Part shown: positions 8,370-36,147 of the stretch, piece by piece
Layout of the letters: every line of letters starts with the position of its first letter
How positions within the stretch are numbered: the stretch's first letter is position 1
Source: an uncultured Arenicella sp.
GTDB taxonomy: Bacteria > Pseudomonadota > Gammaproteobacteria > Arenicellales > Arenicellaceae
Reading direction: 5' to 3'
NCBI GenBank assembly: GCA_937974565.1
Contig: CALJWL010000037.1
Location: 62,001-126,000 of the forward strand
Length of the DNA stretch: 64,000 bases
Notes under the pieces: model-generated
Told to the model about the DNA's origin: nothing
Seen by the model: the letters and a program-made list of their open reading frames with translations, nothing else
The model's database searches: none
Program-made: the position numbers and the translations under genes

Positions 8370-8478
8370 ATATATCTCAATGTACCTAAATTACACCTTT
8401 CAAATATCTTTGAGAAAAATGAGAATTTTAAAATCTTAGCTAATTCCTTATGAGCTTTTGATTTTAAATCTGTTTGAA

Positions 8479-12240: not shown

Positions 12241-13563
12241 TTATCTTCTCAAGTATGACCACGCCGGCTCACGCACGTCACCTTGAATGAATTCTACTTT
12301 GGTTCGAACTCGACCGTCCGCTGACGCAACAATCATCGTCGGCTCAAAGCCTTGCTCAGTCATATACAATACCATGTCTCCATTGGGAGAAAAACTAGGA
12401 GATTCATCAAATTTAGCCCTAGTCAACCACATAAATTCGCTGGTTTCGGCATTCATCAATACAATACTGCCACCATCATGCACCATCGCGATATTTGTGC
12501 CCGTTTCATCATAGCTGGCATTGGCGTTTTCATCGCCTTCAAACGTAATGCGCGACATCGACTGATCTAGCAAACTGTAACGATAAATTTGCGGCTTTCG
12601 CGAACGGTTTGAAGTGAATAATAAGCTCTCGCCTCTGGGCCCCCAACTCGGCTCAGTATCAATACCCCAATGAGTGGTGATACGCTGATGCTCACGTGTA
12701 ACTGTGTCGTAGATAAACACATCGGGGCTGCCATGTTTGGAACTTGAGTAAGCTAACTTAGAGCCGTCAGGTGACCACGAAGGAGCCGAATTTACGCCCT
12801 TAAAGTTAGCAATATTTTCAGCACGGCCGGTAGCCAAATCCAACGATTTCACAATCGGCCCTTTAGAACTTAAATTGACAAAGGCAAGTTTTTTACCATC
12901 GGGTGACCAATCGGGCGACAGGATAGAGTTCCAAGAAGCGTATACTTCGCGGGCGTCATAGCCATCCCAATCGGCGACCATTAATTTGTAGCGGTAGCGT
13001 TGGTTTTCCACACGCACGCGCTCAACAAAAGCAATGCGTGATTGAAATGCGCCAGTTCCGCCCGTGAATGCTTTATACACTTCGTCTGAAATTAGGTGAG
13101 CGGCAGCTCTCAGATCTTTTTGTCGCAAATTAGGAATACGCCTGGTTTGCCCAACCTGTTGATCTCTGGCCACATCGAACATTCTAAACTGCACTTCATA
13201 TCGATCTTCGGCCAAAGTCCAAATTTCACCAAAAACCAAAACGCGGGCATCAATTAATCGCCAATCTTTAGCGCGCACCTCTTCCACACGTGAAGGAAAG
13301 GTTAAAAATTTTTCGCTAGGTATGGGCTCAAACTTGCCTGTTGCATAAAGATTGTTAGAGACAATGGTGTGAATCTGATGTTCCAACACCGTCTCATCCA
13401 ATACTTTGAATGGAACGATCGCGATCGGAGTTCCTCGCTCAACGGCCCCACCCACATTGATCTCGACTTGAGCCCAAGACGCTGATGACAAGCATAAGAA
13501 CAAACTGATGCCTAAATAAAAAGCTGAGCGCGCCGTACTGAAAAAAGTTTTTTGAAAGTTCAT
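12241..13563 (-). CDS. tolB: Tol-Pal system beta-propeller protein TolB
   Basis: Periplasmic partner of Pal and TolA. The 440-residue precursor has a signal peptide (hydrophobic stretch about residues 10-30, cleavage near SWAQ), an N-terminal alpha/beta domain (GTPIAIVPFKV onward), and a six-bladed propeller whose blades repeat 'SPDWSPDGKKLAF', 'PSWSPDGSKLAY', 'PSWGPRGESLLF' and 'PSFSPNGDMVLY'. Length and order are typical. Lies between tolA and pal. Confidence 0.97.
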   Translation of the reverse strand: MNFQKTFFSTARSAFYLGISLFLCLSSASWAQVEINVGGAVERGTPIAIVPFKVLDETVLEHQIHTIVSNNLYATGKFEPIPSEKFLTFPSRVEEVRAKDWRLIDARVLVFGEIWTLAEDRYEVQFRMFDVARDQQVGQTRRIPNLRQKDLRAAAHLISDEVYKAFTGGTGAFQSRIAFVERVRVENQRYRYKLMVADWDGYDAREVYASWNSILSPDWSPDGKKLAFVNLSSKGPIVKSLDLATGRAENIANFKGVNSAPSWSPDGSKLAYSSSKHGSPDVFIYDTVTREHQRITTHWGIDTEPSWGPRGESLLFTSNRSRKPQIYRYSLLDQSMSRITFEGDENANASYDETGTNIAMVHDGGSIVLMNAETSEFMWLTRAKFDESPSFSPNGDMVLYMTEQGFEPTMIVASADGRVRTKVEFIQGDVREPAWSYLRR

Positions 13564-13615
13564 TATGAGATGCTTTTATGTAAGTTGCTTTTACTTTGGT
13601 TTGTTTCCGGCCAAT

Positions 13616-14542
13616 TTACTTGGCAATATTAATTGTCACATTTTGCATCTGTTCGTGTGCAATTTGATCTTCATCCGGCGTTGGTAAAGGCAACGGGCTG
13701 GCCTGCAGTACGGCCGTTTCAGCACTTTTATCAAATGTATCACTACCGCTGGATTCTACGATACGAATGTTAATGACATCACCACGTGGAGACAGTTTAA
13801 TATTCACCTTCGCTTTGCGCCATGCTTCAATGCCTGGCGGCACGTTCCATTTACTCTTAATTGCCTTTTCCATTAAAGCCGAATACTTTGCTTTAATAGT
13901 GGTGGTGCGTTCAGCCGCCGCTTTGCTAATTGCCGCCGCTCGACGCATCGCTTCTTCTTGCTCTAAGCGACGCGTTAATTCTTCTTGCTCACGCTGCCGT
14001 TGGGCCGCTTCGAACGCTTCTTTTTCCTTTTTAATGCGTGCCAATTCGGCTTCACGTTTCTTTTTTTCTTCGGCTAACTGTTTTAACTCTTTGCGTTTTT
14101 TCTCGGCATCTCGTTTAGCTTCTTCTTTTCGCTTTTTTTCTTTTAGCTCTTCTTCTTTCTTTTTCTTTTGCAGAGCGATAGCGCGCATTTTCTCAGCTTG
14201 TTCGGCGTCTTCTTTCTGTTTTTCCAACTCTGCAAGGCGTTTCTTTTCTCGCTCAGCTTGCTGCTTTAACTCATGCAGTCGTTTTTCTTCGTCTAATCGC
14301 TTTTTCTTCTTTTGTTGATCTTTCTTTTTTATTTCATCGCGGGTTTTCTGCAATTGATCTTCGTCTACGGCCCGTGCTTTGACAATGTCTATTTTTTCAG
14401 CGTCAAGTGCTTGAACTTGCTCAGTTTTATCAGCACCAAAGTTGAATATCATCACGCCAATAATGGCCGCGTGAATCAACCCAGCACCAATATAGGCGAT
14501 GATTTTATTGGTGGCCGCTGATTTTTTTCTTCTTTCGCTCAT
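13616..14542 (-). CDS. tolA: TolA, energy-transducing membrane protein of Tol-Pal
   Basis: TolA links the TolQR motor in the inner membrane to TolB-Pal at the outer membrane. The 308-residue protein has a short basic N-terminus and one transmembrane helix (about residues 14-33). Next is a very long Lys/Glu/Ala-rich helix, spanning about residues 45-210, with runs of KKK, EEK and AER. The C-terminal TolA domain starts around YSALMEKAIKSKWNVP and includes VNIKLSPRGDVINIRIVESS. It is somewhat shorter than E. coli TolA (421 residues), through a shorter helical spacer. Confidence 0.96.
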   Translation of the reverse strand: MSERRKKSAATNKIIAYIGAGLIHAAIIGVMIFNFGADKTEQVQALDAEKIDIVKARAVDEDQLQKTRDEIKKKDQQKKKKRLDEEKRLHELKQQAEREKKRLAELEKQKEDAEQAEKMRAIALQKKKKEEELKEKKRKEEAKRDAEKKRKELKQLAEEKKKREAELARIKKEKEAFEAAQRQREQEELTRRLEQEEAMRRAAAISKAAAERTTTIKAKYSALMEKAIKSKWNVPPGIEAWRKAKVNIKLSPRGDVINIRIVESSGSDTFDKSAETAVLQASPLPLPTPDEDQIAHEQMQNVTINIAK

Positions 14543-14572
14543 TTAATGCTTTCGTTTTTATTATTGCTTGCC

Positions 14573-14995
14573 TTATTCACTGGGCTTTTGCTCGGTCACC
14601 AAGCTGACGGTCTCAATACCGGCACTTTTTAATAAACTCATGGCGAGCATAACGTATTCATAGCGAACGTCTTTATCACCACGAATCAAGAAATTAGTGG
14701 TGGGTTTTTCCAAGTGCAACGCTTTTGAATAACGGACAATGCCAGCAGCGTCATACTCTCGATCATCAACATAGAACTTGCCTTGCGCATCCACCGTTAA
14801 CACAAACGGCTCCGGCGTTTCAGGGTCGGCTTGAATCGGCGCAGACTCAGTGGTCTGAGGCAAATTGACTTTAACGCCCTCGGTTAACAATGGCGCTGTG
14901 ACCATAAAAATAATGAGTAACACCAACATCACATCAATGTAAGGCACCACATTGATCTCAGCAATGGCTTTACGTTTTCGATTGCGATAGCTCAT
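14573..14995 (-). CDS. tolR: TolR, proton-channel subunit of Tol-Pal
   Basis: With TolQ it forms the proton-driven motor of the Tol-Pal system. ATG at 14995 gives a 140-residue protein with the usual start MSYRNRKRKAIAEINVVPYI; the frame runs further upstream but only into tolQ sequence. One transmembrane helix (about residues 19-40) carries the conserved Asp21 in PYIDVMLVLLIIF, the residue expected to carry protons. The periplasmic domain follows (VNLPQTTESAP; FLIRGDKDVRYEYVM). Thirteen bases separate it from tolQ. Confidence 0.96.
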   Translation of the reverse strand: MSYRNRKRKAIAEINVVPYIDVMLVLLIIFMVTAPLLTEGVKVNLPQTTESAPIQADPETPEPFVLTVDAQGKFYVDDREYDAAGIVRYSKALHLEKPTTNFLIRGDKDVRYEYVMLAMSLLKSAGIETVSLVTEQKPSE

Positions 14996-15008
14996 CGTTG
15001 ATATACGC

Positions 15009-15911
15009 TTAACGCGCTTCACCAATGGCAAGTTGACGATTGATAATGCTAATAAACTCTTCCATAAATATCTCGTATTGAGCAATCAGCTTTTCGACCT
15101 GTGTGTTGTAACGGTTATAAGCAATAACCGCCGGAATTGCCGCAAATAACCCCATGGCAGTGGCTACCAAGGCTTCAGCAATGCCCGGCGCGACACTGGC
15201 AACTGTGGCTTGTTGAGTTGACAAACCAAGGGCGCGAAACGAATTCATAATGCCCCAGACGGTGCCAAACAGCCCAACGTATGGGCTGGTAGAGCCGATG
15301 GTGGCCAACGTAGGAATTTGCGATTCTAAATGATCAATCTCTCGACTTAACTCCACTCTCATGGCCCGTTGGACGGCGTCAAGCAAATCGTTATTGTTGG
15401 CATAGCCGCGTTCACTCAGCCGTTGGTACTCTCGGTAACCAGACACAAATATCTCAGACATACCAGAGGATTGCTTAGTTTCAGCACCCCATTGGTTATA
15501 GAGTTGTTGCATGCTGCCGCCTGCCCAAAACTGGTCCTCAAACTTTTTGGTGAGCTTACGCTCTTTGCTCAGCAAGCGAGATTTGGTGAAAATAATCGAC
15601 CATGACATCAAGGATGCAAGCAATAACATCAACATCACCAACTGAACGGTGACAGACGCATCCAACACCAGAGAAACTATTGACATGCTGTCGCTGTGAG
15701 CGGCATTAGGCTCGTTTCTGGACGGTATAGCGAGGGCTGCTTGCTCTGTTAAACCGTCATTGGTAACAACATCTTCGGCTGCGATTTGTGCGAACGTAAA
15801 CGCCTGTGCCGCCACCGTCGCGTGCATGGAGCCAGCCAGAGAACCACTGGGGAAAATCACGCCAGTCAGCACCACGCTGAGCAAGACTACACTGAAAAAA
15901 TATTTAATCAT
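15009..15911 (-). CDS. tolQ: TolQ, with signal-peptide-like N-terminal extension
   Basis: TolQ is the channel scaffold of the Tol-Pal motor. Residues 76-300 align with normal TolQ: MSIVSLVLDASVTVQLVMLM as first helix, then the long cytoplasmic part, then IGSTSPYVGLFGTVWGIMNS and the last helix with VATAMGLFAAIPAVIAYNRY. The frame continues 75 codons upstream to an ATG at 15911 whose translation begins with a convincing signal peptide (MIKYFFSVVLLSVVLTGVIF). If used, the mature protein would have a periplasmic tail of about 45 residues, as seen in some ExbB proteins. The conventional start is ATG at 15686. Neither has a strong ribosome binding site, so the start is unresolved. Confidence 0.93.
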   Translation of the reverse strand: MIKYFFSVVLLSVVLTGVIFPSGSLAGSMHATVAAQAFTFAQIAAEDVVTNDGLTEQAALAIPSRNEPNAAHSDSMSIVSLVLDASVTVQLVMLMLLLASLMSWSIIFTKSRLLSKERKLTKKFEDQFWAGGSMQQLYNQWGAETKQSSGMSEIFVSGYREYQRLSERGYANNNDLLDAVQRAMRVELSREIDHLESQIPTLATIGSTSPYVGLFGTVWGIMNSFRALGLSTQQATVASVAPGIAEALVATAMGLFAAIPAVIAYNRYNTQVEKLIAQYEIFMEEFISIINRQLAIGEAR

Positions 15912-21357: not shown

Positions 21358-22074
21358 TTACTTAAGAGTTTTTAACCCATCACCGTCGCTTTCATTAAAA
21401 AAGCGTACTAACTGTCGCCCCATGCCATTACAAGCATCGCCTTCAACCTGTGCCAGCAAGGGGATGGGGACCACAAACGCAGGCACATATGAGGTGCCCA
21501 CGGCTTCGGTACTCACGCGCCCCACCTCTTCAAGGGTAGCGACATCCCAGATTGTGGTTTCGTAATCACTGGTGTCTTCCCAAGAACCAAAACCAAAACA
21601 ACCACCACCACCCGGACCTATGGAACAGGTCATGCTGCCTGAAGAGTTTGTTGTCTCGGTTGAACCTTCCACCCACACAAAGTACTTCACTTTCATTTCT
21701 TGTAATTTAGCCGCAACCAACGGTTCGTTCAGCACTTTCTTTAGCTTGGCCGGACGCAGTGGCGCTGTACGAGCTTCAAACCATGGATAAAACGCGTCGA
21801 CAAACTCACGCTCATCAATAATGCGAATGTCATTGGTGCCTCTCTGTAATTTGCCTCCGATGCATGAGACTAAACTGGCTTCCGTTTGAATCTCGGGCGT
21901 CTGATGACGGCCAAGCACCACCATCGCATCGCCTTTTTGCCACTCCACTGTGTCTTTTAAGCGGACTTGATCAATATTGATGGTGGTACAGGCTGACATT
22001 AATAAAGACAGCCCTAATATGCCTAAAATTTTAGCGCCATTTTTAATGGCGCGTTGCTTGCGTGGTTTATTCAT
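21358..22074 (-). CDS. Lipoprotein of unknown function (envelope cluster)
   Basis: ATG at 22074 is chosen because GAGGAG lies seven bases upstream, overlapping the end of the preceding gene by eight bases. The 238-residue precursor has a signal sequence ending in the lipobox LLMSAC, so it is lipid-anchored. The mature part has an N-terminal stretch with WQKGDAMVVLGRHQTP, a middle MKVKYFVWVEGSTETT strand, and a glycine-rich segment GPGGGGCFGFGSW with two extra cysteines. A conserved-looking end follows (TIWDVATLEEVGRVSTEAVG). 'ADLREIIDEREFVDAFYP'-like segments recall exported proteins that compute or sense levels, but no family can be named. Penultimate gene of the 19.7-36 kb run. Confidence 0.75.
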   Translation of the reverse strand: MNKPRKQRAIKNGAKILGILGLSLLMSACTTINIDQVRLKDTVEWQKGDAMVVLGRHQTPEIQTEASLVSCIGGKLQRGTNDIRIIDEREFVDAFYPWFEARTAPLRPAKLKKVLNEPLVAAKLQEMKVKYFVWVEGSTETTNSSGSMTCSIGPGGGGCFGFGSWEDTSDYETTIWDVATLEEVGRVSTEAVGTSYVPAFVVPIPLLAQVEGDACNGMGRQLVRFFNESDGDGLKTLK

Positions 22075-22852
22075 CACTAAGCTCCTCATCTGAATCTGGC
22101 TCTGTTACGGTTGCACTGGCTTGCACCGCTTCGCTGGTCGTTACTAACTCATCAACAGGCACCACCGTTTCTTCAATTTGTGCGGTTACCGCGCTCGGTA
22201 GCACTTCGGCCAACGGCTCGCTGGATGCCTTGCTGGCAACCAAATCTCTAATCTTTCGCTGCCCAGCAAAACGGGTAGCCAGCTGAGCGCCAACGTCTCT
22301 TAAGGCTACGTTGGCGGCCGAATTAAAAGCCTTAGACGCGCTGGTTAGTAATGCCGTTGGGGTTTTCCCGTACCCTTTTATGGTCCAGTCTGCTAATTTG
22401 GAGTTATCCGTGTTCAATAGCTTGATACGGTATTTTATCCATATCTCATATTGCTTTAGTTTGGTTTCACTAGGGGCTGTGTATTGAAAATCCAGCACTT
22501 CTGGCTCTATGGTAAGGTCATGTATGCCAGCGTCTGGATCGACAATAGTGGCTAAACCAGAAAAAATAGCATCAAACATACCAATCTGCGCATCGGCAAA
22601 ATTAAGACTACTAAGGGCACGTTTGCGTTCACGTTCAACATAGACGTAATTTTTAAATTCGTCTGTGTAAGACATACTCACGTTCAGCGGCACCTTGGTC
22701 ACTAATGGTGTGGGAACACTGCCCACCACCGTTACTTTGCTGGCGCACGCACTTAGCAATAGCACCAAAGATAGGATACTCAACTTTTTAAAGCGCAAGC
22801 CTATACGATAAAAATCTATGTTTAAATGAATTCTTGGGAAAAATATGTGCAT
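22067..22852 (-). CDS. Lipoprotein of unknown function (envelope cluster)
   Basis: A 261-residue precursor with an unusually long N-terminus before the hydrophobic core and lipobox LLLSAC near residue 35. The mature part runs through PLNVSMSYTDEFKNYVYVER, IHDLTIEPEVLDFQYTAPSE and YEIWIKYRIKLLNTDN. This alternating pattern suggests a small mixed alpha/beta domain like those of exported lipoproteins that accompany LptE/ABC-type auxiliary proteins. The last 50 residues are acidic and Val/Thr/Glu-rich. It starts 14 bases after the second vWA gene and overlaps the next lipoprotein gene, so it is firmly in the operon. I do not recognise the family. Confidence 0.75.
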   Translation of the reverse strand: MHIFFPRIHLNIDFYRIGLRFKKLSILSLVLLLSACASKVTVVGSVPTPLVTKVPLNVSMSYTDEFKNYVYVERERKRALSSLNFADAQIGMFDAIFSGLATIVDPDAGIHDLTIEPEVLDFQYTAPSETKLKQYEIWIKYRIKLLNTDNSKLADWTIKGYGKTPTALLTSASKAFNSAANVALRDVGAQLATRFAGQRKIRDLVASKASSEPLAEVLPSAVTAQIEETVVPVDELVTTSEAVQASATVTEPDSDEELSDE

Positions 22853-22865
22853 GCTGTGGCTCGTT

Positions 22866-23867
22866 CTATCTCAAATTATTTAGGCCTATAAACGTACCAT
22901 TATTCTGTTCAGCTAACTCTCGCATCAGAGCAGCGTAACGCATCGCATTACTGCGAATGCCTGGATTGGTACTCATATGTACAGGAAAACCAATACCGTG
23001 GATTCTAACCAGCCGTTCTCCACGTTTATTTCCCTCATTTAATTCACTTACAATATTAAGAACACGTCGAACTGAACGTCCAGAGTAATCATCACCAAGG
23101 ACATAAAGACTGATCTTCTTCTTTTTATCATAGTGCTGCCGAATCGCAGTGGTGATGCCTTCAACGGGGCTGGAGTTGCTAAACGCGTTCCAAGTACGCA
23201 ATTTGCTGATGATTTGTCTTCGACGCGATGGTGAATCGGGCATAAACTGCCCTCTGAATGTCGGAAACATATACTGACCTTGATCATTCATCACCTGAAT
23301 GCCTTTCACTGTGGGGTGTATGCGCAGCGTATTTACCACCTCATTGAGCAACCGGCCCCAAGCACGAGAGAACATACTGCCTGATGTGTCGATGATAAAA
23401 ATAATGTATTGCGAATCCACCGGCACACCGCCAATAAAATCATTCGACTTTTTACGGTTTTTGAGCAGCCGTTTCATTTCTCTGGACAACGACTGCAATG
23501 CTATTTCCAAGTCTTTTGCCTCAGTCGCATCATCAGCACCAAACTCTTCAATACTGGCTTGACGCGAATTAAGTTCGTCTAATTCACCACGTAAAATCGC
23601 CACACGACTTTTGTCTTTTCCCAACTGCTCTTGTTTCGCATTCAAGTCGGTTTCAAGATATTTGACTTGGCCGCGTATCTCAAACAAACGTTCTTGCAGC
23701 GCACGCACACGCCCTTGGTCTTGGATTGGCGACTCTTCTAATACCACCGGCACTGATGGGCGTACGATGACTAACAACAATACAATGGCACCAAAACCAC
23801 AACAAATTATATCCAGAAAGCTTAAACCGGCATCGCCCAAACCTCTTCTTGCCTTGCGTCTGCTCAT
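22866..23867 (-). CDS. Membrane-anchored vWA protein with TolR/ExbD-like helix (B)
   Basis: ATG at 23867 overlaps the stop of the upstream vWA gene (ATGA) and has AGGG eight bases upstream. The 333-residue product starts with a basic tail, then one helix LSFLDIICCGFGAIVLLL (residues 15-32) carrying Asp19. A coiled coil of about residues 50-135 follows, then a vWA domain. The metal-binding (MIDAS) motif is complete at its first part, IIDTSGSM (D160, S162, S164), with LGDD later as the likely second acidic site. The protein should sit in the inner membrane with its vWA head in the periplasm. It pairs with vWA protein A, which shares the same helix pattern. It replaces an ExbD/TolR gene that is absent from the cluster. 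Confidence 0.85.
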   Translation of the reverse strand: MSRRKARRGLGDAGLSFLDIICCGFGAIVLLLVIVRPSVPVVLEESPIQDQGRVRALQERLFEIRGQVKYLETDLNAKQEQLGKDKSRVAILRGELDELNSRQASIEEFGADDATEAKDLEIALQSLSREMKRLLKNRKKSNDFIGGVPVDSQYIIFIIDTSGSMFSRAWGRLLNEVVNTLRIHPTVKGIQVMNDQGQYMFPTFRGQFMPDSPSRRRQIISKLRTWNAFSNSSPVEGITTAIRQHYDKKKKISLYVLGDDYSGRSVRRVLNIVSELNEGNKRGERLVRIHGIGFPVHMSTNPGIRSNAMRYAALMRELAEQNNGTFIGLNNLR

Positions 23868-24943
23868 GGCCAATCCCTCGCAGGCGTCACAAATGACCCT
23901 TGCGTGCGAATCGCCAAACTCCAAAAAGCCCCCGCGGCGTAGTTATCGCCTTCTAATGGCAATAACATGGTGTTGACGGGAATGCCTGGAGCCAACTTTT
24001 GCACCGCTCTGCGAAAGACTTGATAGCGTTGCGCTCCGGATATGGAACCCGACTCAGGCGCACCTTCACCGATGGTGGGCAAGCCATCGGTTAACACAAA
24101 AATATTATCGGGCTTGGGGGTCATACTCATTGCCACCTCAAACACTTGCTCAAGATTAGTGCCGTTTTTAGGCACCACTTGATTAATGCCTTGCACCGCT
24201 GATGCCACGGAAACCCGGTCTGCGACTTCGTACCACGCATTCACCTCATCGCTAACCACAGGATTAACTTCATCACTAAACGATAAAATTTGAAAATCAC
24301 TTGAAAGCGGCAAATTAGCAACAATCCATTGAGTGATAGCCAAGGTTCGCTCCCACTTTGGCGCTTGCCGTTTGAGTTCATCGCTCATGTTTCTTCGGCG
24401 TAATACATTGACGATACTTTCATCTAACATGCTGGCTGAACTGTCGACTAGAATCAGCACATTATCACCACCAAGCCGTAAGCCGGTCAGGTATTGACGC
24501 TCACCGTCGCCAGTAAACTCAAACGCTTTATTACCAGCAGGAACCGTACTTTCTATCGCTGCTTTTTGGTTTTCTAACTTAGCCAGCTTGGCTTTCAAAC
24601 CGGGGATATCGGGAATCGAGTCAGGCGTAATTTCCACCAGCACACTCTTTAGCTCTTCCAATTCTTCTTGTATTTTACGAGCCAGGCCTTGAGCCGTAAC
24701 CGACTCATCGCTGACATCACTGATGGTGTTGCGGATGCGTACCAAGTCTTCTTCACCCTCAAGAATTTCCTCTTCTAATAAATCGATCTCAGCCATCACC
24801 TGAGGTTCTTGATTTGGGATAGGTGAATCAACCACGTGCTTGAGTAGTAAAAAGATCAACACCGCGGCACCCAACCCACAGGACATAATGTCCAAAAAAG
24901 ACAGGCTGAAAGTGGATGTTTCTCTGATTTTTCTACGTGGCAT
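23864..24943 (-). CDS. Membrane-anchored vWA protein with TolR/ExbD-like helix (A)
   Basis: A 359-residue protein with a basic N-terminus, one helix LSFLDIMSCGLGAAVLIFLL (residues 14-33) containing Asp18, then a coiled coil (about residues 48-135). A vWA domain with full MIDAS elements follows: LVDSSASM at 166-173, KNGTNL supplying the Thr, and LTDGLP supplying the second Asp. vWA domains bind partners through a metal ion. The helix matches that of the next gene nearly residue for residue and resembles the TolR/ExbD/MotB helix, where a single Asp carries protons. Located between the actin/Hsp70-like gene and vWA protein B. Confidence 0.87.
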   Translation of the reverse strand: MPRRKIRETSTFSLSFLDIMSCGLGAAVLIFLLLKHVVDSPIPNQEPQVMAEIDLLEEEILEGEEDLVRIRNTISDVSDESVTAQGLARKIQEELEELKSVLVEITPDSIPDIPGLKAKLAKLENQKAAIESTVPAGNKAFEFTGDGERQYLTGLRLGGDNVLILVDSSASMLDESIVNVLRRRNMSDELKRQAPKWERTLAITQWIVANLPLSSDFQILSFSDEVNPVVSDEVNAWYEVADRVSVASAVQGINQVVPKNGTNLEQVFEVAMSMTPKPDNIFVLTDGLPTIGEGAPESGSISGAQRYQVFRRAVQKLAPGIPVNTMLLPLEGDNYAAGAFWSLAIRTQGSFVTPARDWP

Positions 24944-24992: not shown

Positions 24993-26375
24993 TCAAATGA
25001 TGGTCGCTGCGGTGATTACGCCGTCCGCCAATGGCGACATAATTCGATCATTCGCTGATAGTTCTTTGCGTTTCTTATCATTCACTATGTGTAAACTTCC
25101 GTCTTTTAATAAGACGTTTACGTCACTTGCGTTCGCGGACTTGGTGAGTGACAAAACAGCGCCTTTGGTTGAGATACGAGCCTGAGCAATAGGCACTATC
25201 AAGCCAAACTGCATCAAGTGTGTTGCAGCAACAAATTTAGAATCAAGTGCGGCTGGCCGAGCCGGTTTAGCCTCGGCAGGGTTATCATCACAGCGTCCAG
25301 AGCTGGCCGTCACTTCCTCGCCATGCGCTTGCTTATTGGGCATTGCGCTAACGTTCAAATTAACCAAACTGGTTTGAAACACAACGTTTCCGCTGGCATC
25401 TTTGGTGTTGGTGGCACGGTACGTCAACAAACCAGCCGCAAGAGTGCTGTCATCACTTGCCCACGTAATCGCACGAGACGCCAAGCTTGGTAAGCGGCGT
25501 AAATTAAACGAAGTGTTGGTGTCGACAAGCAGTTGCTTAGAATCAAGTTGGTTTAACTGCGATATTAATTCACTCAACGCGGATTCAATTTCATTGCTGG
25601 CAATAACCGCGCTGTACAGTTTGCCTTGATGTTGAACGCCCACAGTGGATTTTTCGCCGTTAACGGCACTCGCAACAATGTCGGGCAACTGGTCAAATAA
25701 CTGTTGTTCGGTGTCGGCATCATGCAATGGGTCAAAGCGATCAGTGCGAATAAAATTTTCTTGCAATACCTGCAATAGAGATTCCTGCAAACTCTGAATG
25801 CCTAGCTTAGGCTTTATATCCACATCCACCAAATTTATTTTGGCATCAGTGATCTCAAGCGTTGAAATAACCGTCTCATGCAATTGAACGTCGACATGCA
25901 TGGCGTGGCCTTGACTTAAGTTTTGCTGCTGAGCAGCCAACACGGGTTTGCTGATTAACGCTGAAACTTCCAAGCCAGCGGCTTTCGCCACACCCAACAG
26001 TAACTGTAAATGCGAATCGCGATAGTTTGCTGGCACGATCATCGCCAGCGTTTCAAGAGTGTGCTTGCTTTTTAATTCGGCTAAGTGTTTCCAAATAAGG
26101 TCCGCCGCATGGCGCATGCCCGCACCATTACTTGCAATGGCTGTTTGCGCACATTGCTGCCAGTAACGGCTATTTATTTGCTGAGGCGCTATCCGGCAAT
26201 GCGCAACGGGCTTGTCATCGCTATTCACATCAAACAACACTTGATCACCTTTCAGCCAAGCATAGCCTTGGCTGCGCGCTACAAGAGTGTCTTGTTTTGA
26301 ATCACTGGGCGGCGACGTTGAATTTAAACGTTGAAGCAGCAAATTATGATCGCTGACATGAAGAATATGTGACAT
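24993..26375 (-). CDS. Actin/Hsp70-fold protein of unknown function
   Basis: A 460-residue protein without a signal peptide, so probably cytoplasmic. It begins after GGGGAG seven bases before the ATG. Segments such as TLETLAMIVPANYRDSHLQL, GVAKAAGLEVSALISKPV and LSELISQLNQLDSKQLLVDT follow the order seen in Hsp70/actin-type ATPases (the 'VPA...R..l..AA..AG' stretch). However, the usual glycine-rich phosphate loops (DLGGGT-like) are missing; the equivalent position reads VDVQLHETVISTLEI. It may be a pseudo-ATPase or a scaffold. The last 60 residues form a small beta-rich tail (VLLKDGSLHIVNDKK). It lies directly between the MotA/TolQ/ExbB-type gene and the vWA pair, 17 bases after the former. 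Confidence 0.65.
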   Translation of the reverse strand: MSHILHVSDHNLLLQRLNSTSPPSDSKQDTLVARSQGYAWLKGDQVLFDVNSDDKPVAHCRIAPQQINSRYWQQCAQTAIASNGAGMRHAADLIWKHLAELKSKHTLETLAMIVPANYRDSHLQLLLGVAKAAGLEVSALISKPVLAAQQQNLSQGHAMHVDVQLHETVISTLEITDAKINLVDVDIKPKLGIQSLQESLLQVLQENFIRTDRFDPLHDADTEQQLFDQLPDIVASAVNGEKSTVGVQHQGKLYSAVIASNEIESALSELISQLNQLDSKQLLVDTNTSFNLRRLPSLASRAITWASDDSTLAAGLLTYRATNTKDASGNVVFQTSLVNLNVSAMPNKQAHGEEVTASSGRCDDNPAEAKPARPAALDSKFVAATHLMQFGLIVPIAQARISTKGAVLSLTKSANASDVNVLLKDGSLHIVNDKKRKELSANDRIMSPLADGVITAATII

Positions 26376-26393: not shown

Positions 26394-27197
26394 CTAACTT
26401 TGCAAGTGTCTGATCAAATTGAAATCACAGTAATCTTGAGCGTCTGACACCATACGCTCCTGCATTAGCGTAATTTGATGCATCAAAAACATGATCACGA
26501 TGCTAATCAACAATGCGATAAAGGTCGAGTTAAACGCCACCCCTAAACTGGCCGTGACCGCCGCGATATTTCCTTGCACGGCTTCATGCGCGTTACCCAG
26601 CGCGGTACCGATACCGCGAACAGTACCGATAAAGCCGATAGAAGGAATAGCCCAAGTAATATAGCGCACCATAGACAACTCAGAATCCAACCGATCTGCT
26701 TCCGTATCGCATGTGTCTCTGACCACATTTGAAACATCAGCCACCGAACCCGTAGAACCGTATCTTTGTAAAGCGCCTCGCAGGGCTCTTGGTAATAAGA
26801 AACCACGTTCAGGTTCGGGTAACGCCTCTAGGGGGCGCGATAATTTTCGAGAGTCTTCCGGTAGCACCCGACGGCCATCCTCAATGCTTACCAGTGGTTG
26901 AGAAAACAAACGCCGTTGCGCACTTACATTTTGTGCCTTCAAGCCCATGATCGCCATCACCCAAAGCATCAGAATAAAGCAGGTTTCCTGCTCATAGTCT
27001 TTCAACACAACCCATGCCGAGCGCTCGATTTTAACCATCTCGCCAGAAGCCTCTTGTTCAGCAATGGCTTGCGCTTCAGCAGCCAATACCGCCTCGGCAT
27101 TAGGCCGAACAAGCCCCACATAAATCGTGTGTACGACCACAAACGAAAGCACTAATGCAACTATTTGGTAAAAGAATTCAGACTTTTGGAATTTCAT
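26394..27197 (-). CDS. MotA/TolQ/ExbB-family proton channel protein
   Basis: A 267-residue inner-membrane protein. Four hydrophobic helices lie at about residues 9-29, 72-87, 178-202 and 214-240, with a cytoplasmic stretch between the second and third. Helix 3 has AIPSIGFIGTVRGIGTAL, the hallmark of TolQ/ExbB/MotA channel subunits, and helix 4 has AFNSTFIALLISIVIM. Such proteins form pentamers around two copies of a small Asp-bearing subunit, and proton flow drives movement. Here no ExbD/TolR gene follows; the vWA pair two genes downstream carries the equivalent helices. It is preceded by a small acidic exported protein. Confidence 0.92.
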   Translation of the reverse strand: MKFQKSEFFYQIVALVLSFVVVHTIYVGLVRPNAEAVLAAEAQAIAEQEASGEMVKIERSAWVVLKDYEQETCFILMLWVMAIMGLKAQNVSAQRRLFSQPLVSIEDGRRVLPEDSRKLSRPLEALPEPERGFLLPRALRGALQRYGSTGSVADVSNVVRDTCDTEADRLDSELSMVRYITWAIPSIGFIGTVRGIGTALGNAHEAVQGNIAAVTASLGVAFNSTFIALLISIVIMFLMHQITLMQERMVSDAQDYCDFNLIRHLQS

Positions 27198-27304: not shown

Positions 27305-27628
27305 CTAAATATCAACAGGGAAGGGGACAGGAGAATCCTCAGAAATTTCTTCTGTAGGATTAAAGACCTCACCCGGGGCTGGGTTCTTACTGGGCTCGCC
27401 TTGTTTTGGCACTGGGTTGGTTTGCTGCTTAGATTCAGTGGTTGCTAAATCGTCACTATTTTCGCCTTCTTCTTCACCACTATTGTCTTGCCCAACTTGT
27501 TCGTTAGAACTTGAGGTCGGTGCCCCCTGCTGTGCAACTGTGGCGGTTGAAAAAGCCACCCAGAGACACACTGAAAGTAGAGTCGGGATAAACGCTTTAA
27601 AATCAAACTTGGTCGGGTTATCAAACAT
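27305..27628 (-). CDS. Small exported acidic protein (envelope cluster)
   Basis: A 107-residue protein with a signal-like hydrophobic stretch (about residues 13-32, cleavage near TVAQ). A mature tail rich in Glu, Asp, Ser, Asn and Pro follows, with no cysteine and little predicted fold (DNSGEEEGENSDDL; PAPGEVFNPTEE). It lies ten bases after the PEGA/SUMF1 gene and about 100 bases before the channel gene. It could be an unstructured linker or assembly factor of the complex. No family recognised. Confidence 0.6.
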   Translation of the reverse strand: MFDNPTKFDFKAFIPTLLSVCLWVAFSTATVAQQGAPTSSSNEQVGQDNSGEEEGENSDDLATTESKQQTNPVPKQGEPSKNPAPGEVFNPTEEISEDSPVPFPVDI

Positions 27629-27638
27629 AATTTAAGCT

Positions 27639-29831
27639 CTAATTCTGAGCCACCCGCTTCTTAGGTTTATTCAAGCCGGCATAACGTGCAACCCGAAACC
27701 CAATGTCATGAGCGCCCTTAGCGCCGTAATCACGATACGCCAGCCGCAACTGAGGTAAGTGGCCTCTGGCCCAGCTAGCGCCTCTGACAACGTGGAATTC
27801 ACCATTGTCAGGCCCCAATGGGTCTTTGGCGATGCCATTTTTCACTAGTTCACTGCTGCCTTTAGATGAATACCAGTCATTAACCCACTCAGCGGCATTG
27901 CCACCCATGTCAAACAAACCTTTATGATTAGCCGGAAATCGGCCAACTGGGGCTGGGCCTTTATAACCGTCTTGGTAACCCTGCAAAGTGAAGGTGATCA
28001 AAGACTGGGCTTTTTCATCGGCCAAATTCTCTACCTTTTTACCTGACGGAGCCGATTTACTGTTGCCCCAAGGGTAAGTAAGCAAACCCTCGTTCGTATT
28101 ACGGGCCAACCATGACCATTCGGCTTCGGTTAATAGTCGATAGCCATTTGCATCAGGGTTGAGGCCAGACACAAAGCCAGAAACCGTTTGATAGAATGGG
28201 TCCAAACCTTCGCGTTCGCTCAGCCAGTTGCAATACTGGGCTGCCTGTTGCCAAGTAATATTAAGCGCTGGTGCTTTATTGGCATCCAAACTTTTACCTT
28301 TGTAATTACCTGCATTATGCGTGGCTTTAAACTGTCTGAATTGTTTATTGGTGGTTTCATGTAATGCCACATAGAACGGCTTAGTCAACTCCGCTTGATA
28401 CACAACCTCATTTGCGCGGCGGCCATCTTCGCGCCGTGATGAACCCAACTTCACAACACCCAAATCGCGAAATAATTTCATTTCATGGCCCAAACGATTG
28501 GTATACGAATTGGGTATTTGGGCCCAATAATGTTGCTCTTCGGTCAGAAGCTTAAAACTGAGAACTTGCTGGCTGCGCTTGGTGGGAATGATCTCAGTTT
28601 TTTGCGTGACGTAACCTGGTTTTCTCACACTGATTGAATGGGGCAACGTGTTCAACGCCAGTGTTTGACTGCCTGTTCCACGCCTTGCTCCATCTACGTA
28701 CACAGCCGCATCTGATGGCGTCACGCTCAGTTTGACGTTAATAATATCTGGCGACAACGCAAATTCTTCAACTTGCTGTTGGTCTGGGGCAAGGGAAAAC
28801 GACGAACGGGCAAGCTGATAGCCGGCTTTATATACTTTGAGTGTTTGCTCTTGATTCGGGGCAACGGCCAGAGAAATAGGCGTAACGCCTTTAAATTCAT
28901 CGTTAAGGATGACCGCAGCGCCATTGGGCACCGATGCTAACTCGATAATGCCGTCGGACGGCACAAGCGTTATATCAGGTACCTCAATGGACTCTTGTGC
29001 CACCACACTTAATTCTTGCTCAAAGGCTTTAAAGCCCAATGCTTTTAGTGATAAGCTTCTTGTTCCTTCTTCGATACGCACAGTGGCCGGTGTTTGCCCT
29101 TTAATAACACCATCAACACGGATATCAGCGCCTGTTGGGGTAGTGACGAACGAGTATTCTGCCCATGCTGGTTGCAGTTCAGCAACCACTTGTTGTGTTT
29201 CACCTTTTCCATGTACGGTAATGGTGGTGGAAAAAGGTCGATACAAATCGGCGTCAATGGTGACATCATGAACTCCAGCACTGATGTTTTTCAACAGGCC
29301 CGGCACTTCAAATGAATCTTCACCAATGGTGGCAATTGCTGATACACCCTCGGGCAGAGTCACATCCAATGTTCCAGGCAGACGCGTCATCACCACTTCA
29401 AACTGTTGATGTCGATCACCTGATACCGATAGCGTCTGAGTAACCGGCTGATAGCCGTCTGCCTTCAATGAAACGTCGTGTTCGCCGGGCAAGACCAACA
29501 CGCGATTCCCCAACGGGAGCTTTATCTTACTGGCAACAGTAACATCGGCGGGTTGCAATAACAGCTCTTCCGGCTTACTTAATTTTGGTGTAACGGCGGT
29601 TATCTGAATCGATTTAGCAAAAGTAATAAATGCAATAAAGGTCAAACACAATAAAGCGAGAAAAAATAAGCCGACATGAGCAGGGGTCAGTTTAAATGAA
29701 GCACGTGATTGTTCAGCACTGGGTGTCTCGAAATCACTAGCACCAATTGCAATATTGCCACCGCTGACCCCAAATGAATTGCCGAGTGAGTTATTAACGA
29801 CTTGATTATTATTGTCTTGTTGCTCTGTCAT
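27639..29831 (-). CDS. Bitopic PEGA-repeat protein with C-terminal SUMF1-like domain
   Basis: A 730-residue protein with a cytoplasmic tail of about 50 residues, one transmembrane helix (about 52-72), then five PEGA-type repeats between about residues 110 and 425. Examples are TTPTGADIRVDGVIKGQTPA, SVPNGAAVILNDEFKGVTPI and VTPSDAAVYVDGARRGTGSQ. From about residue 445 a formylglycine-generating-enzyme-like (SUMF1) domain follows: ALHETTNKQF, YRLLTEAEWSWLAR, LFDMGGNAAEWVNDW and VVRGASWARG, ending DIGFRVAR. The catalytic cysteine pair of true formylglycine-generating enzymes is absent from the last segment, so it is probably a structural or binding module. PEGA repeats often hold surface or envelope structures. 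It starts four bases after the TPR gene's stop. Confidence 0.87.
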   Translation of the reverse strand: MTEQQDNNNQVVNNSLGNSFGVSGGNIAIGASDFETPSAEQSRASFKLTPAHVGLFFLALLCLTFIAFITFAKSIQITAVTPKLSKPEELLLQPADVTVASKIKLPLGNRVLVLPGEHDVSLKADGYQPVTQTLSVSGDRHQQFEVVMTRLPGTLDVTLPEGVSAIATIGEDSFEVPGLLKNISAGVHDVTIDADLYRPFSTTITVHGKGETQQVVAELQPAWAEYSFVTTPTGADIRVDGVIKGQTPATVRIEEGTRSLSLKALGFKAFEQELSVVAQESIEVPDITLVPSDGIIELASVPNGAAVILNDEFKGVTPISLAVAPNQEQTLKVYKAGYQLARSSFSLAPDQQQVEEFALSPDIINVKLSVTPSDAAVYVDGARRGTGSQTLALNTLPHSISVRKPGYVTQKTEIIPTKRSQQVLSFKLLTEEQHYWAQIPNSYTNRLGHEMKLFRDLGVVKLGSSRREDGRRANEVVYQAELTKPFYVALHETTNKQFRQFKATHNAGNYKGKSLDANKAPALNITWQQAAQYCNWLSEREGLDPFYQTVSGFVSGLNPDANGYRLLTEAEWSWLARNTNEGLLTYPWGNSKSAPSGKKVENLADEKAQSLITFTLQGYQDGYKGPAPVGRFPANHKGLFDMGGNAAEWVNDWYSSKGSSELVKNGIAKDPLGPDNGEFHVVRGASWARGHLPQLRLAYRDYGAKGAHDIGFRVARYAGLNKPKKRVAQN

Positions 29832-29835
29832 AAAA

Positions 29836-31512
29836 CTAACTCGCGTCTACTATTTGATCAGTGCAGGCTATCGTAAACGACTGCACACCGTTCACGTTTG
29901 GATTCAATTCCAATTCAGTACGCACATCATGAAACCCGAGTCGGGTTCCAGTGACGGTGTAACGCCCAGGCTTTAATGCCAAATTTTTTACGTCGAACTT
30001 GCCTAAATTGATTCGCTTAGCACCGGCTTTCTTCAAGCTAATTTGAGTGAGTGCATCAGAGTTAAATGACACTTTTACGGTACTGTCGACCTGCTTGATT
30101 GATGACTCTAGGGCTGCGATTTGTTGCTTTAACATCGGCCCTTTACTGGCAATCCCTTTTGCGTCTTTAAGCACGGCCTCGGCCGCTGCTCGTTCAGTTG
30201 AGCGGCTAAGTGCTAACGGGTCACTGAGTATGTCTTTCAACGATTTATCTAACTCAACGCGCGCTTGACTGCGAATACGACCAATTTTAGCGCTGACCTG
30301 ATTACGATCACGCTGTAACACAGTTTGGTAGTTAGACAGCGCGCTGGCCCATTGCTCATTCTGCTCAAATCGTTGAGCGCCACTTAGTAAGGAGCTTAAA
30401 GATGTGCGCTTATCCGATGCCAAAGATTGGCGTAACGCCGACGCAGCAGTGGGGTCTTCTGGTTTGAATCGCAACGCCTGATTGAAGGCCGACCTAGCAT
30501 TGGTGTAACGACTGGCAAACAAGGCACTAAAGCCGTCGCTCATCGCCAACCGATACTGCTTATCAACTCGCAAGCTTTTAGTTCGATCCAACCCGTTGAT
30601 CGCGGTTTGTGATTGACTGTCTAGGTCTAAAGCCTGTTGATATTTTTGCTGCGCTTGCTCAATATCAGCCAGCAAGTCTGATACAGCGAAATCTTGTTCA
30701 TCAAGCGCTGCCGCCGCCGCCAATTGCAGAACCTGATCCAGTGTTTCCACACGTTGCAGACCCTGCAACGCGGGGATGTAATTTCGGTCTAATAGACGTG
30801 CAGCATCCAAGCGTTCGCGCGCGAGTTCTGATTTTCCTTCACGAATGGCAGCCATGCCTTCGGCAACTCGACGCTTGAGTTCGGCGGGCACTAATTCTTC
30901 AATTGACTCTAGCGAGCTGACCGCGTTCTTATACTGTTGAATCGCATTAGTATAGTCCTGTTGCTGATATAACTGATCGCCCTCTTCAGCGAGAGCTAAA
31001 GCGGATTGAAACGGCGCCTGGGCCCATACACTAACTTCTTTTGCTTCCAGCTTCTTTTTGATTTCAAGCAGTTCAGCCAGCACTTCTTGCGAGTCGGTTC
31101 GTACTTGTTCTCGTTGAGACTCATTGAACGGTGCAATTTGCTCTTCGACATCAGAGGCAACCAAAGGCTGCCCAATACTTGCCTCGCCAGAGGCACTGAT
31201 AAGAGTGCTATCACGACCCACGGTTGGCGCGGGTGTCAGGGTAATGAACAGCAAGGTTGCAATGCCTAACAAGGCAAACACGCACAACATTAAATTAAAT
31301 TGAGAATGCCACCAAGAAGCGCCACTGCGTTCGGCGATCAAGCCACGATTTGAACCCGTAACGGTGTCGTTGGCTTGGCTAAGGGTCAACTGGTCGTCAG
31401 GCGCTTGAAATTCGCTTGCTTCTATTGACTTGCCTTTTGCTTGACCCACTGGTTTGTTTGCAGAATGAGCCAAGGGTTTATTTAAGGGCTGATTTTGGTC
31501 CTCTACGCTCAT
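29836..31512 (-). CDS. Bitopic TPR-like protein with PEGA-type end (envelope cluster)
   Basis: A 558-residue protein with a cytoplasmic Gln/Ala/Lys-rich tail of about 65 residues, one helix (about residues 72-92), then a long helical region. TPR-like units include ALAEEGDQLYQQQDYTNAIQ, LAMSDGFSALFASRYTNARS and RFEQNEQWASALSNYQ. The last 80 residues resemble a PEGA unit (NLALKPGRYTVTGTRLGFHD). Topology and order match the next gene product, so the two probably stand side by side in the inner membrane with periplasmic arms. Start ATG at 31512 lies 30 bases after the lipoprotein gene. Named family not recognised. Confidence 0.78.
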   Translation of the reverse strand: MSVEDQNQPLNKPLAHSANKPVGQAKGKSIEASEFQAPDDQLTLSQANDTVTGSNRGLIAERSGASWWHSQFNLMLCVFALLGIATLLFITLTPAPTVGRDSTLISASGEASIGQPLVASDVEEQIAPFNESQREQVRTDSQEVLAELLEIKKKLEAKEVSVWAQAPFQSALALAEEGDQLYQQQDYTNAIQQYKNAVSSLESIEELVPAELKRRVAEGMAAIREGKSELARERLDAARLLDRNYIPALQGLQRVETLDQVLQLAAAAALDEQDFAVSDLLADIEQAQQKYQQALDLDSQSQTAINGLDRTKSLRVDKQYRLAMSDGFSALFASRYTNARSAFNQALRFKPEDPTAASALRQSLASDKRTSLSSLLSGAQRFEQNEQWASALSNYQTVLQRDRNQVSAKIGRIRSQARVELDKSLKDILSDPLALSRSTERAAAEAVLKDAKGIASKGPMLKQQIAALESSIKQVDSTVKVSFNSDALTQISLKKAGAKRINLGKFDVKNLALKPGRYTVTGTRLGFHDVRTELELNPNVNGVQSFTIACTDQIVDAS

Positions 31513-31543: not shown

Positions 31544-32869
31544 CTACTTTCCAGAATTGGTTAGGCGGGCTTGGGTCTTATCACCAATCAAGCCACTACC
31601 TGACGTTTTATCAGAACGTTCGCCCGTTTCCTGATCTATTATTTGATCAATGCTTTCGCCCTCTTCGATTTCAAACATACGAGAAAGAATGCGGCGCCAT
31701 TCAATAAATTGGTCTTCGACTGTGCCCGACAAGGTAATGCTGCGGTCTTGCAGATCAACCACGCTTGGCTCTAACTCTAATTCTAAAGAACGGCCCATTT
31801 CACGTAATGTTTCACTGTGTGACAGCGCTTGGTCTGCTTTTAGAAAGCTACGAGCAAAAACACGTGCCCCGTAAACAGAACCGAGAATTCCCGCGGCCTG
31901 TGTGGTTCGACTTCGACTGCTATTAGCCGCCACCACACTGCCAGCAATAGCCACAATGCCTGCTATTTTCTCTTTCCGAGCCTGTTCACGCAATTGGCGC
32001 TCAAGCAACACTTCCTTGTAACTCAACTTACGCCACTCTTGATACGGAATAGACATGTTGTTATTAAAGGCGCGATAGTAATCTTGAATTACGTCTAGAA
32101 ACAAATCATTACGCGAACGAATGCGATCCACTTTCAGCATGATGGGGTCGTCATTGGCTGGGATACGAGTTAGCTTAAAAACACCTTGCTCATCTTGAAC
32201 CGCGTAATCATTAAACGCAGCGGGAACAAATTCACGTGCGAAAAGCACCTTAGCGGTGCTACGAATGGTTAATAACTGTCGATCACTGAGTTGTGCCCGA
32301 TGATCAAAGAGGTCATTGGCAATACGGTTAAAAAGCGCCTGAAAAGGGTCTCCTGGTAAATTCACCTCAGGGTTATAGGCATATTGACTCACGGTCTGCT
32401 CGTACTGTTCGGTGAACCAAAGATTACCGCCAGCGTCACTCACATCGACTTTGAGGATCACGGTTTCGCCATTCGAATCAACCAACGTGCCCCTAACCAT
32501 CACGTCCATAACGCTGCTGTTATTAGGCAGAGATCGAACCAAGCCCCAAGCATTGCTGCGATCTAAGGTGGTTTTTAGCTGCGAGGTATACCAAACCGCT
32601 TCGCTTTTTCGAATATTGGCGTAGGCCGCTGCGTCATCATCAAGTTCATCAACACCGTGATCAAACAGCACTACACCCACATCCAGCAATAGTTCTTCGT
32701 CTATTTTAGACTCTTGTTCGTCCGACAATTTAGAAATCGGCACCTCGACCGTTTCATGGTATTCATACGTGGTGCAGCCACTGAGAATTAGCGTTAACAA
32801 CGAGAGCAAACAAATGATCGCAATAGAACGCGTTGGTCTCCGTTGATTTACTTTCTGTGCTTTTTGCAT
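31544..32869 (-). CDS. Lipoprotein of unknown function (envelope cluster)
   Basis: A 441-residue precursor, ATG with GAGA seven bases upstream. The lipobox LILSGC (Cys near residue 32) marks it as lipid-anchored. The first half has ELLLDVGVVLFDHGVDELDD and KSEAVWYTSQLKTTLDRSNA, then VMVRGTLVDSNGETVILKVD, a pattern seen in proteins that bind or measure other envelope proteins. A glycine/alanine-rich, weakly hydrophobic stretch (IAGIVAIAGSVVAANSS) follows near residue 300. The C-terminal SITLSGTVEDQFIEWRRIL might be a BON-like fold. No named family. Lies between the Glu-Gly-Gln repeat lipoprotein and the TPR bitopic protein. Confidence 0.75.
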   Translation of the reverse strand: MQKAQKVNQRRPTRSIAIICLLSLLTLILSGCTTYEYHETVEVPISKLSDEQESKIDEELLLDVGVVLFDHGVDELDDDAAAYANIRKSEAVWYTSQLKTTLDRSNAWGLVRSLPNNSSVMDVMVRGTLVDSNGETVILKVDVSDAGGNLWFTEQYEQTVSQYAYNPEVNLPGDPFQALFNRIANDLFDHRAQLSDRQLLTIRSTAKVLFAREFVPAAFNDYAVQDEQGVFKLTRIPANDDPIMLKVDRIRSRNDLFLDVIQDYYRAFNNNMSIPYQEWRKLSYKEVLLERQLREQARKEKIAGIVAIAGSVVAANSSRSRTTQAAGILGSVYGARVFARSFLKADQALSHSETLREMGRSLELELEPSVVDLQDRSITLSGTVEDQFIEWRRILSRMFEIEEGESIDQIIDQETGERSDKTSGSGLIGDKTQARLTNSGK

Positions 32870-33088: not shown

Positions 33089-34192
33089 CTACAGACCTTT
33101 GTAGCTGTAATATTCTTCCCAAAGCTTCTTCTTTAGCTCTGGGTCCGTCTCAGCTTCAGCAGCCTCACGAATTTGCCGTGCGACGATGTCATCATTTTTT
33201 CGTAAATCTTCTATGTCAGGGCGCTTAGGATCGGCGTTCTCATCTTCGTCAAAGTCATTGCCAGGGTCGCTGCCTTTACGGTCTTCACCACCTTCTGAAG
33301 AAGCACCTCCGGCGCCACTATTAGATGACGACGACCCGCCTTTCTGCTCACCAGAGCCTTGACTTCCAGAGGGTGTTGGCGTTTTTTTGCCTTTGTCATT
33401 GCCATCAGCGCTTTCATCATACTCTTCAAAAGCGACAACGCCCCCTAGGCCATCTTCGCCTGCATTTTCGTTTGCACGCTCTTCGGCGTAGGTTTTTTCG
33501 CGTTCAATTTCTTCATCAAAATCGCCAAGAGTCTCATCAAGCTCTTTTTCCAATTCTTCAAGCTCTTTATCACTCAGCCCCCCACGTTCATCAAATTGCG
33601 GTTGTTCGAAACCGCCACCTTCGCCACTTTGGTCGGGCTCTTCGAAAGTCACGTCGTCTTCGCCACCTTCGCCCCCATTTTCACCTTCTAGATCTTCATC
33701 ATCTTCCCAACCATCGGGTGCTTCGCCCTGTGAACCTTCGTCGCCTTGACCTTCTTGACCTTCTTGACCTTCTTGACCTTCTTGACCTTCTTGACCTTCT
33801 TGACCTTCTTGACCTTCTTGACCTTCTTGACCTTCACCACTTTCACCGCCTTGCGCACCTTCGGGTGGTTCTCCAGACTCACCGCTTTCACTACCTTCTT
33901 GATCGCCGGCAGGAGGTTGACCAGATGGCGAGGAACTTGGGGTTGAAGGTTGACTTGGGGTTGATGGGCCAGGTAACGGTGGCGGTAAACCTTGATCACC
34001 ACTTTCACCGCTGCCGCCACCACTGGGTGGTGTGGGTATCGAAGGGCCACTTGGCCCTTGAGGTGAACCCTGTTGTTGGCCACCGTTTGGATTGATCGGT
34101 GTGGCACACGAAGCCAATCCCAAAATCAAACCAGCGACAAAAGTGAGCTTTAAAATTGGGCACTTAGTGGGTTGTGAATCAAGATTTTTCAA
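33089..34192 (-). CDS. Low-complexity acidic lipoprotein with Glu-Gly-Gln repeat
   Basis: A 367-residue precursor read from TTG at 34192 (GAGA about eight bases upstream), with lipobox ILGLASC near residue 29. The mature part is almost entirely disordered. A Gly/Pro/Ser-rich start is followed by a perfect tandem of Glu-Gly-Gln triplets (coded by ten 9-base repeats), then Glu/Asp/Gly-rich stretches. The final 60 residues are helical (DIEDLRKNDDIVARQIREAA; EAETDPELKKKLWEEYYS), likely a binding end. It could be an outer-membrane-anchored spacer. The tandem may change length by slippage without breaking the frame. No family recognised. Confidence 0.72.
   Translation of the reverse strand: MKNLDSQPTKCPILKLTFVAGLILGLASCATPINPNGGQQQGSPQGPSGPSIPTPPSGGGSGESGDQGLPPPLPGPSTPSQPSTPSSSPSGQPPAGDQEGSESGESGEPPEGAQGGESGEGQEGQEGQEGQEGQEGQEGQEGQEGQEGQGDEGSQGEAPDGWEDDEDLEGENGGEGGEDDVTFEEPDQSGEGGGFEQPQFDERGGLSDKELEELEKELDETLGDFDEEIEREKTYAEERANENAGEDGLGGVVAFEEYDESADGNDKGKKTPTPSGSQGSGEQKGGSSSSNSGAGGASSEGGEDRKGSDPGNDFDEDENADPKRPDIEDLRKNDDIVARQIREAAEAETDPELKKKLWEEYYSYKGL
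33745..33834. repeat. Ten perfect 9-bp tandem repeats inside the lipoprotein gene
   Basis: The plus strand repeats CTTGACCTT ten times without a mismatch, giving Glu-Gly-Gln codons on the minus strand. As a multiple of three it can expand or contract without a frameshift. Perfect identity between copies suggests recent or ongoing slippage. Confidence 0.95.
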
Positions 34193-35930: not shown

Positions 35931-36147
35931 TGCAAAACCTCGAAGACTATCTTGTTGGACGAGTTTCATAGGCTAGCTTTTTAGTTTGGTTTTCTTTTAC
36001 CTTAGTACTGACCGCGTTACGAAAAGTTTCAGCATTACCAAATTTTAATAATTGCCCAGTATTTAGACGCAATAATCGTGCATTAGTTTCAATGCAATAA
36101 CAAAGCACAAGACACCATGTCCATCACGGTTGCCCTAGCAGGAGTCA

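Follow-up and report, generated by a model that had tools for sequence, protein, structure and literature searches.

To our knowledge, the solved motors of the family that includes TolQR, ExbBD and MotAB have an axle made of two copies of one protein, and the rotation models for these motors rest on the 5:2 mismatch. In the part of the published account available, the 5:2 motors consist of a pentamer around a dimer (PMC9389320), and the accessible part of a second paper proposes, for TolQR, ExbBD and MotAB, a proton path that runs over the channel threonines and the Asp (PMC10666116). A question about unequal axles has been raised for the AglRQS system of Myxococcus xanthus gliding: in the available text, the formation of an AglQ/AglS heterodimer was called not yet known in 2022, and both proteins are described as carrying TolR-like wall-binding domains (PMC9389320).

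The window analyzed in this study is a stretch of 64,000 nucleotides from an uncultured Arenicella sp., and its minus strand carries a gene cluster that encodes a channel subunit and two proteins, A and B, which the initial annotation had suggested might act as an asymmetric motor pair. The best reading of our data, at about even probability, is that these three proteins would form one ion-driven motor of the inner membrane, in which one A helix and one B helix would fill a pentameric pore (5:1:1). No description of the cluster or of a vWA axle was found in the literature searched, some of which was available in part, with subscription papers and preprints outside its scope.

The channel subunit (positions 26394 to 27197, minus strand) is a member of PF01618 and is TolQ/ExbB-like in its predicted fold. 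Its match to MotA_ExbB (53.2 bits, with a cut-off of 22.9) agrees with the earlier claim of a cluster that has the channel gene and no ExbD/TolR, since no ExbD was present among the cluster proteins scanned. Thr192 (26622-26624) and Thr225 (26523-26525) are both aligned with threonines of TolQ from the same genome and are present in 88/88 rows; an extra N-terminal hydrophobic segment lies outside the TolQ-aligned part. In a single-chain model of a channel-A read-through from an orthologous locus (L101), the channel part matched TolQ 8odt (Z 15.2, 210 residues, rmsd 4.1) and 8vlw (Z 15.0, 203 residues), the TolQ match being only slightly higher than the Z 13-14 seen in some helical models that have no clear counterpart; therefore, the assignment to the TolQ fold leans also on the Pfam match and on the Foldseek ranking of this model, where TolQ and ExbB were among the best matches (E 5.6e-05). 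The A helix of the same model had a pLDDT of about 50-60, too low to place the helix with confidence.

Protein A (23864 to 24943, minus strand; 359 aa) and protein B (22866 to 23867, minus strand; 333 aa) share one layout, an N-terminal helix followed by a coiled coil and a vWA head. The N-terminus of A, MPRRKIRETSTFSLSFLDIMSCGLGAAVLI, contains Asp18, and that of B, MSRRKARRGLGDAGLSFLDIICCGFGAIVLL when read from the ATG at 23867, contains Asp19; TolR of the same genome has Asp21, numbered from an inner MSYRNRK start. The putative membrane helices, called from hydrophobicity only, span residues 14-34 of A (24842 to 24904, minus strand; Asp18 codon at 24890-24892) and residues 15-34 of B (23766 to 23825, minus strand; Asp19 codon at 23811-23813), and the stop codon of A overlaps the start codon of B in an ATGA (23864 to 23867, minus strand) read from the sequence. 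All of the coordinates, strands, helix sequences, Asp positions and the overlap given for A and B in the initial annotation were correct on re-reading. By manual count, A and B agree at 12 of the 17 helix residues quoted, and the average identity of the two helices of one locus is 0.55 (n=64). Among 20 N-terminal membrane-like segments, drawn from the 54 non-overlapping open reading frames of at least 100 aa in the window, only those of A, B and TolR contain an acidic residue; together with the presence of the Asp codon in every orthologue row, this makes a chance occurrence of the Asp unlikely. Its offset into the best hydrophobic stretch is 2 residues in 63/64 A rows and 48/66 B rows, counting the rows where the search pattern picked up the motif, and three of the five ExbD/TolR helices of the same genome have an offset of 2, with TolR at 5 and the remaining helix at 7.

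Conservation of the Asp in orthologues, on which the motor proposal had been made to depend, is complete in both proteins, so the proposal was not refuted. In A, Asp18 is encoded in 74/74 rows: 67 are aligned, 6 carry it upstream of the called start, and in 1 (L197) the gene is broken and its first piece carries the Asp. The seven alignment gaps at this position are thus artefacts of the ORF caller, six of them encoding FLD or FID just upstream. Six loci (L198, L200, L201, L183, L203 and L184) have no ATG, GTG or TTG upstream of the Asp helix of A; a CTG start is possible there, in which case standard ORF callers would lose the helix. In B, Asp19 is present in 71/71 rows, including one sister protein (L075). 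Furthermore, constraint is strongest on the helix in both proteins: its mean pairwise identity is 0.66 in A and 0.63 in B, compared with 0.20 and 0.22 for the coils and 0.43 and 0.50 for the heads, the other two blocks.

A TolR-like axle role is well supported for A and B. The proteins themselves are not ExbD/TolR, either by profile or by head. Window A and B had no ExbD match in Pfam at E 0.01, and the 25 Pfam families listed per set (of 157 and 191) for 25 A and 25 B members at E 10 included neither ExbD nor MotB. In a sequence search of the PDB, B had no match at E 1 and A matched only a GTPase at E 0.51. Accordingly, the TolR/ExbD-like helix of the initial annotation holds as a likeness of design but not as sequence kinship: with no ExbD kinship in the Pfam listings, we use TolR-like for the design and not for shown homology.

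The helices of TolA and TonB bind the outer face of the channel. If the A and B helices did the same, a TolR/ExbD from elsewhere in the genome would sit in the pore, an arrangement that we consider improbable. The window's genome has five ExbD-family matches, none of them in the cluster; four lie beside channel matches and one, at 1447-1872 of L011 (contig C23 of G000), does not, so this arrangement keeps some weight. ExbD-family and channel matches were compared in 22 genomes that carry the system, selected by us from those found, and 16 of them have 2 to 8 ExbD-family matches, which would also leave a candidate for the pore. However, exactly one such match is present in the other six (G185, G187, G189, G196, G216 and G356), with another channel match no more than about 120 bases away, in a tolR/tolQ- or exbD/exbB-like pair; no spare ExbD for the cluster's channel was found in these six genomes (92-97% complete; G189 is a single contig at 97%), which argues against outside packing unless that TolR is shared. 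A conserved Asp that falls, as here, within the first turns of a hydrophobic stretch is likewise the mark of a pore helix.

The MIDAS motif of vWA domains comprises DxSxS, a Thr (or Ser instead) and an Asp. In A, the DxSxS residues D167, S169 and S171 (24431 to 24445, minus strand) are each present in 73/73 ungapped rows of the 74, position 262 is Thr in 70/72 rows and Ser in 2/72, and D286 is found in 72/73. In B, D160, S162 and S164 (23376 to 23390, minus strand) are present in 71/71 rows each and D259 in 69/69; there is no Thr, and S230 and S232 each occur in 68/70 rows, the choice of which of them replaces the Thr being assumed. A matched VWA_2 in Pfam (31.7 bits), and the head of an A orthologue, in the L101 read-through model, has a predicted vWA fold (4fx5, Z 17.3). 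Window B had no Pfam match at E 0.01; its model has a head with pLDDT mostly 82-96, weaker near residues 291-310, and a helix with pLDDT of about 50-68 by block, and the 50 Foldseek matches listed for this model were mostly vWA proteins. The retention of metal-site residues in both alignments therefore upholds the earlier assignment of heads of a putative metal-binding type to A and B.

Among the genomes searched, A was found in 51/109 of the same order as the window. B was found in 8/143 genomes of the class, three of these being weak matches to A or to sister helix proteins, and a B profile matched 17/398 genomes sampled from the phylum, the G429 match being unrelated. The channel profile matched 40/369 class genomes, including sister and distant families. 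The only close relative returned by a search of genome contigs was an Arenicella MAG, and a plasmid search with B gave no match. We examined 88 fetched neighbourhoods and the window, 89 loci in all, and in 70/89 the channel, A and B lie on one strand, two of the 70 (L071 and L178) having the order A-B-channel; these loci are related and some are nearly identical (e.g., L175 and L176), so that the counts do not represent independent events. The 19 remaining loci are accounted for by contig ends, masking, sister or distant families, one rearrangement and one unrelated match. Contig ends fall in the A region of L093, L096, L097 and L184; at L179 (G706), the roughly 19 kb around the channel contain neither A nor B, but the same genome has the two genes in tandem on a different contig. 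In L070, a masked run of N had produced a spurious fusion of A with a 1751-residue frame, so this locus was left out of both the tree and the 70, and the match in L180 (G429) was to an unrelated coiled coil with no channel. Two copies of the cluster occur in G144, of the window's genus (L082 and L083), the second strongly diverged. These data support the view that the channel, A and B go together as a gene set.

A and B had been presented as two vWA proteins with a common helix, and their likeness in fact extends further: the helix is indeed shared, but the proteins are not otherwise unrelated, since hhalign identified them as paralogues over most of their length (probability 99.8, E 5.5e-29, 16% identity over 249 profile columns). 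In a tree of 54 rows, rooted by midpoint only, A formed one group (100/99) and B another (97/96), with two single-partner vWA relatives outside both (100/97). This topology fits one old duplication that would have preceded the spread of the system, with both copies kept. Outside the cut-short, masked or sister-family loci, none of the 89 loci examined had only A or only B in an intact form. The start and stop codons of the two genes overlap in 58/70 loci (ATGA in 52 and GTGA in 6) and do not overlap in 12/70.

Relatives with a single partner are known from a sister channel family (L065, L075 and L165-L168), in which the channel goes with one helix protein whose helix has the form MSALDLFASALGAFIL; L212 and L214 also belong to this family. 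The head of the partner is a vWA domain in L075 and L165 and was not recognized in L065, and in L166 and L167 the single helix protein is encoded elsewhere in the genome. More distant channel families are represented by L169-L174. Among them, a third family, found in 5/369 class genomes, has a longer channel followed by a short Glu-helix protein, a long Asp-helix protein and an FGE-domain gene; its loci are L170 (G097), L172 (G804), L173 (G710), L174 (G047) and L171/L207 (G656). The Glu lies in the helix of the short protein in L170, L172, L173 and L174, and the truncated G656 copy has no acid there. The Asp was seen in the helix of the long protein in L170, L172 and L174, and L173 matched by phmmer; the FGE gene was recognized by Pfam in L174 and by phmmer in L170, L172 and L173, the remainder of the locus being cut off in G656. 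A search of the 369 class genomes with alignment A5 returned the same five known genomes with this second heteropair, and a search of 398 phylum genomes with alignment A6, which had no positive control among them, found none. The heteropair of the third family, few as its genomes are, is the strongest indirect argument for axles with unequal subunits.

Whether A and B enter one pore together or separate pores is the question on which the 5:1:1 reading turns. A common channel might instead take A2 or B2, giving two alternative homodimeric motors of the classical 5:2 kind, both of them needed, for example for different partners; we regard this as unlikely, while giving it real weight. The solved family motors known to us have homodimeric axles, in line with the available part of PMC9389320, A and B have diverged, as their low profile identity indicates, and single-partner sister families exist. 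However, each of the 70 loci has one channel gene and one tandem A-B pair, no complete locus has A or B alone, both groups have been kept since they split, and start-stop coupling is widespread. The paired retention in 70 loci, the two groups retained since the split and the overlap in 58/70 favor one-to-one use, with the proviso that joint retention of A and B is also compatible with separate rings. The axle that we favor, an obligate heterodimer (channel5-A1-B1), would make the pore permanently asymmetric and would provide two Asp sites and two heads with separate jobs; we place its probability just short of even. The two-partner design itself is suggested by its conservation across many genomes.

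The neighboring genes, all on the minus strand, are arranged in the order TPR protein, low-complexity lipoprotein-like protein, lipoprotein-like protein, second TPR protein, PEGA-FGE protein, small protein, channel, 'mid', A, B and two lipoprotein-like proteins. The first TPR protein (34287 to 35969) was recognized only in the window's genus and weakly in one family member; a TonB-like C-terminus suggested by its look had no Pfam match at E 0.1. The low-complexity predicted lipoprotein (33089 to 34192) and the next predicted lipoprotein (31544 to 32869) were both called by eye from the sequence; the former has a long EGQ repeat, and its C-terminal end, DDIVARQIREAAEAETDPELKKKLWEEY, has similar counterparts in the orthologues compared. 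The second TPR protein (29836 to 31512) has a putative membrane helix, read from the sequence. The PEGA-FGE protein (27639 to 29831) combines an N-terminal hydrophobic segment with PEGA repeats and an FGE-sulfatase (SUMF) domain, and its best NCBIfam match was GldK (79.4 bits, E 3.2e-22, below the cut-off of 350). The small protein 'sml' (27305 to 27628) and the two small predicted lipoproteins downstream of B (21358 to 22852; called by eye) were recognized in some lineages only, and 'mid' (24993 to 26375) lies between the channel and A. Beyond vWA, MotA_ExbB, PEGA, FGE and TPR, searches of Pfam, NCBIfam and PADLOC with 10 cluster proteins gave only weak matches below the cut-offs.

Some relatives carry domains associated with signaling. 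In G017 (L072), the orthologue of the second TPR protein (12619-15048) carries a protein kinase domain at its N-terminus and the 'mid' orthologue (7589-8983) an FHA domain at its C-terminus (Pfam), so phosphorylation may switch the system in that lineage. Near the sister-family channel, Pfam identified PP2C in L075, L165 and L167, FHA in L165 and L075, and trypsin in L075. The PP2C, FHA and kinase domains would suit a static or sensing assembly that is no motor at all and in which the Asp is structural, for example for assembly, but the channel threonines, invariant in the alignment, and the Asp together correspond to the proton path that the accessible text of PMC10666116 proposes for TolQR, ExbBD and MotAB, and we judge such an assembly to have only a small chance of being correct.

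From the comparisons outlined above we infer the pore location, the ion flow, the one-of-each axle and the candidate partners of the proposed 5:1:1 motor. The channel, A and B would constitute an inner-membrane motor of the MotA/TolQ/ExbB kind, its pentameric pore filled by an A helix and a B helix, each from the N-terminus of a single copy, instead of by two copies of one protein. A proton (or other ion) would move between the channel threonines and Asp18/Asp19, and its passage would turn or flex the A-B pair. The coiled coils would then pass this motion into the periplasm, to two different vWA heads with metal sites, and the heads may take hold of partners, for instance the PEGA-FGE protein or the cluster lipoproteins. 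If this proposal is correct, then together with the third channel family, in which the partner helices differ in their acid, heterodimeric axles would be a recurring design. Furthermore, each Asp site could be mutated alone, providing a direct test of whether the sites act in turn, and vWA heads and FGE-domain partners would join the things that such motors may drive.

The proposed motor is reminiscent of several described systems. Zorya (ZorAB) also pairs a MotA-like channel with a partner that is not flagellar. In PADLOC, the 10 cluster proteins scanned gave a weak match to ZorA (15.7 bits, E 0.0014) and none to ZorB, ZorC or ZorD. The GldLM motor of type IX secretion and gliding, with GldK, likewise has a motor gene beside a gene for an FGE/SUMF-domain protein, GldK being a ring lipoprotein of another motor-driven machine. 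GldM is one protein and is not known to have a vWA head, and GldL, GldM and GldN had no NCBIfam match among the 10 cluster proteins scanned. With TolQR, ExbBD and MotAB, the cluster shares the channel profile, the predicted fold, both threonines and a partner with a single N-terminal Asp helix. Unlike those motors, it has two unlike partners, whose coiled coils bear vWA heads and not ExbD-type or OmpA-type domains, and its channel has an additional hydrophobic segment at the N-terminus.

In conclusion, AglRQS is the nearest precedent for this design, since it has one TolQ-like subunit and two different partners with Asp helices, an arrangement seen here in 70 loci. It differs in that A and B carry vWA folds and have no ExbD match, whereas AglQ and AglS are described as having TolR-like wall-binding domains (PMC9389320). 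Judged by its sequences, the Arenicella system is probably a variant of the ion-driven 5:2 motors, in which two different proteins with vWA heads would serve as the axle.
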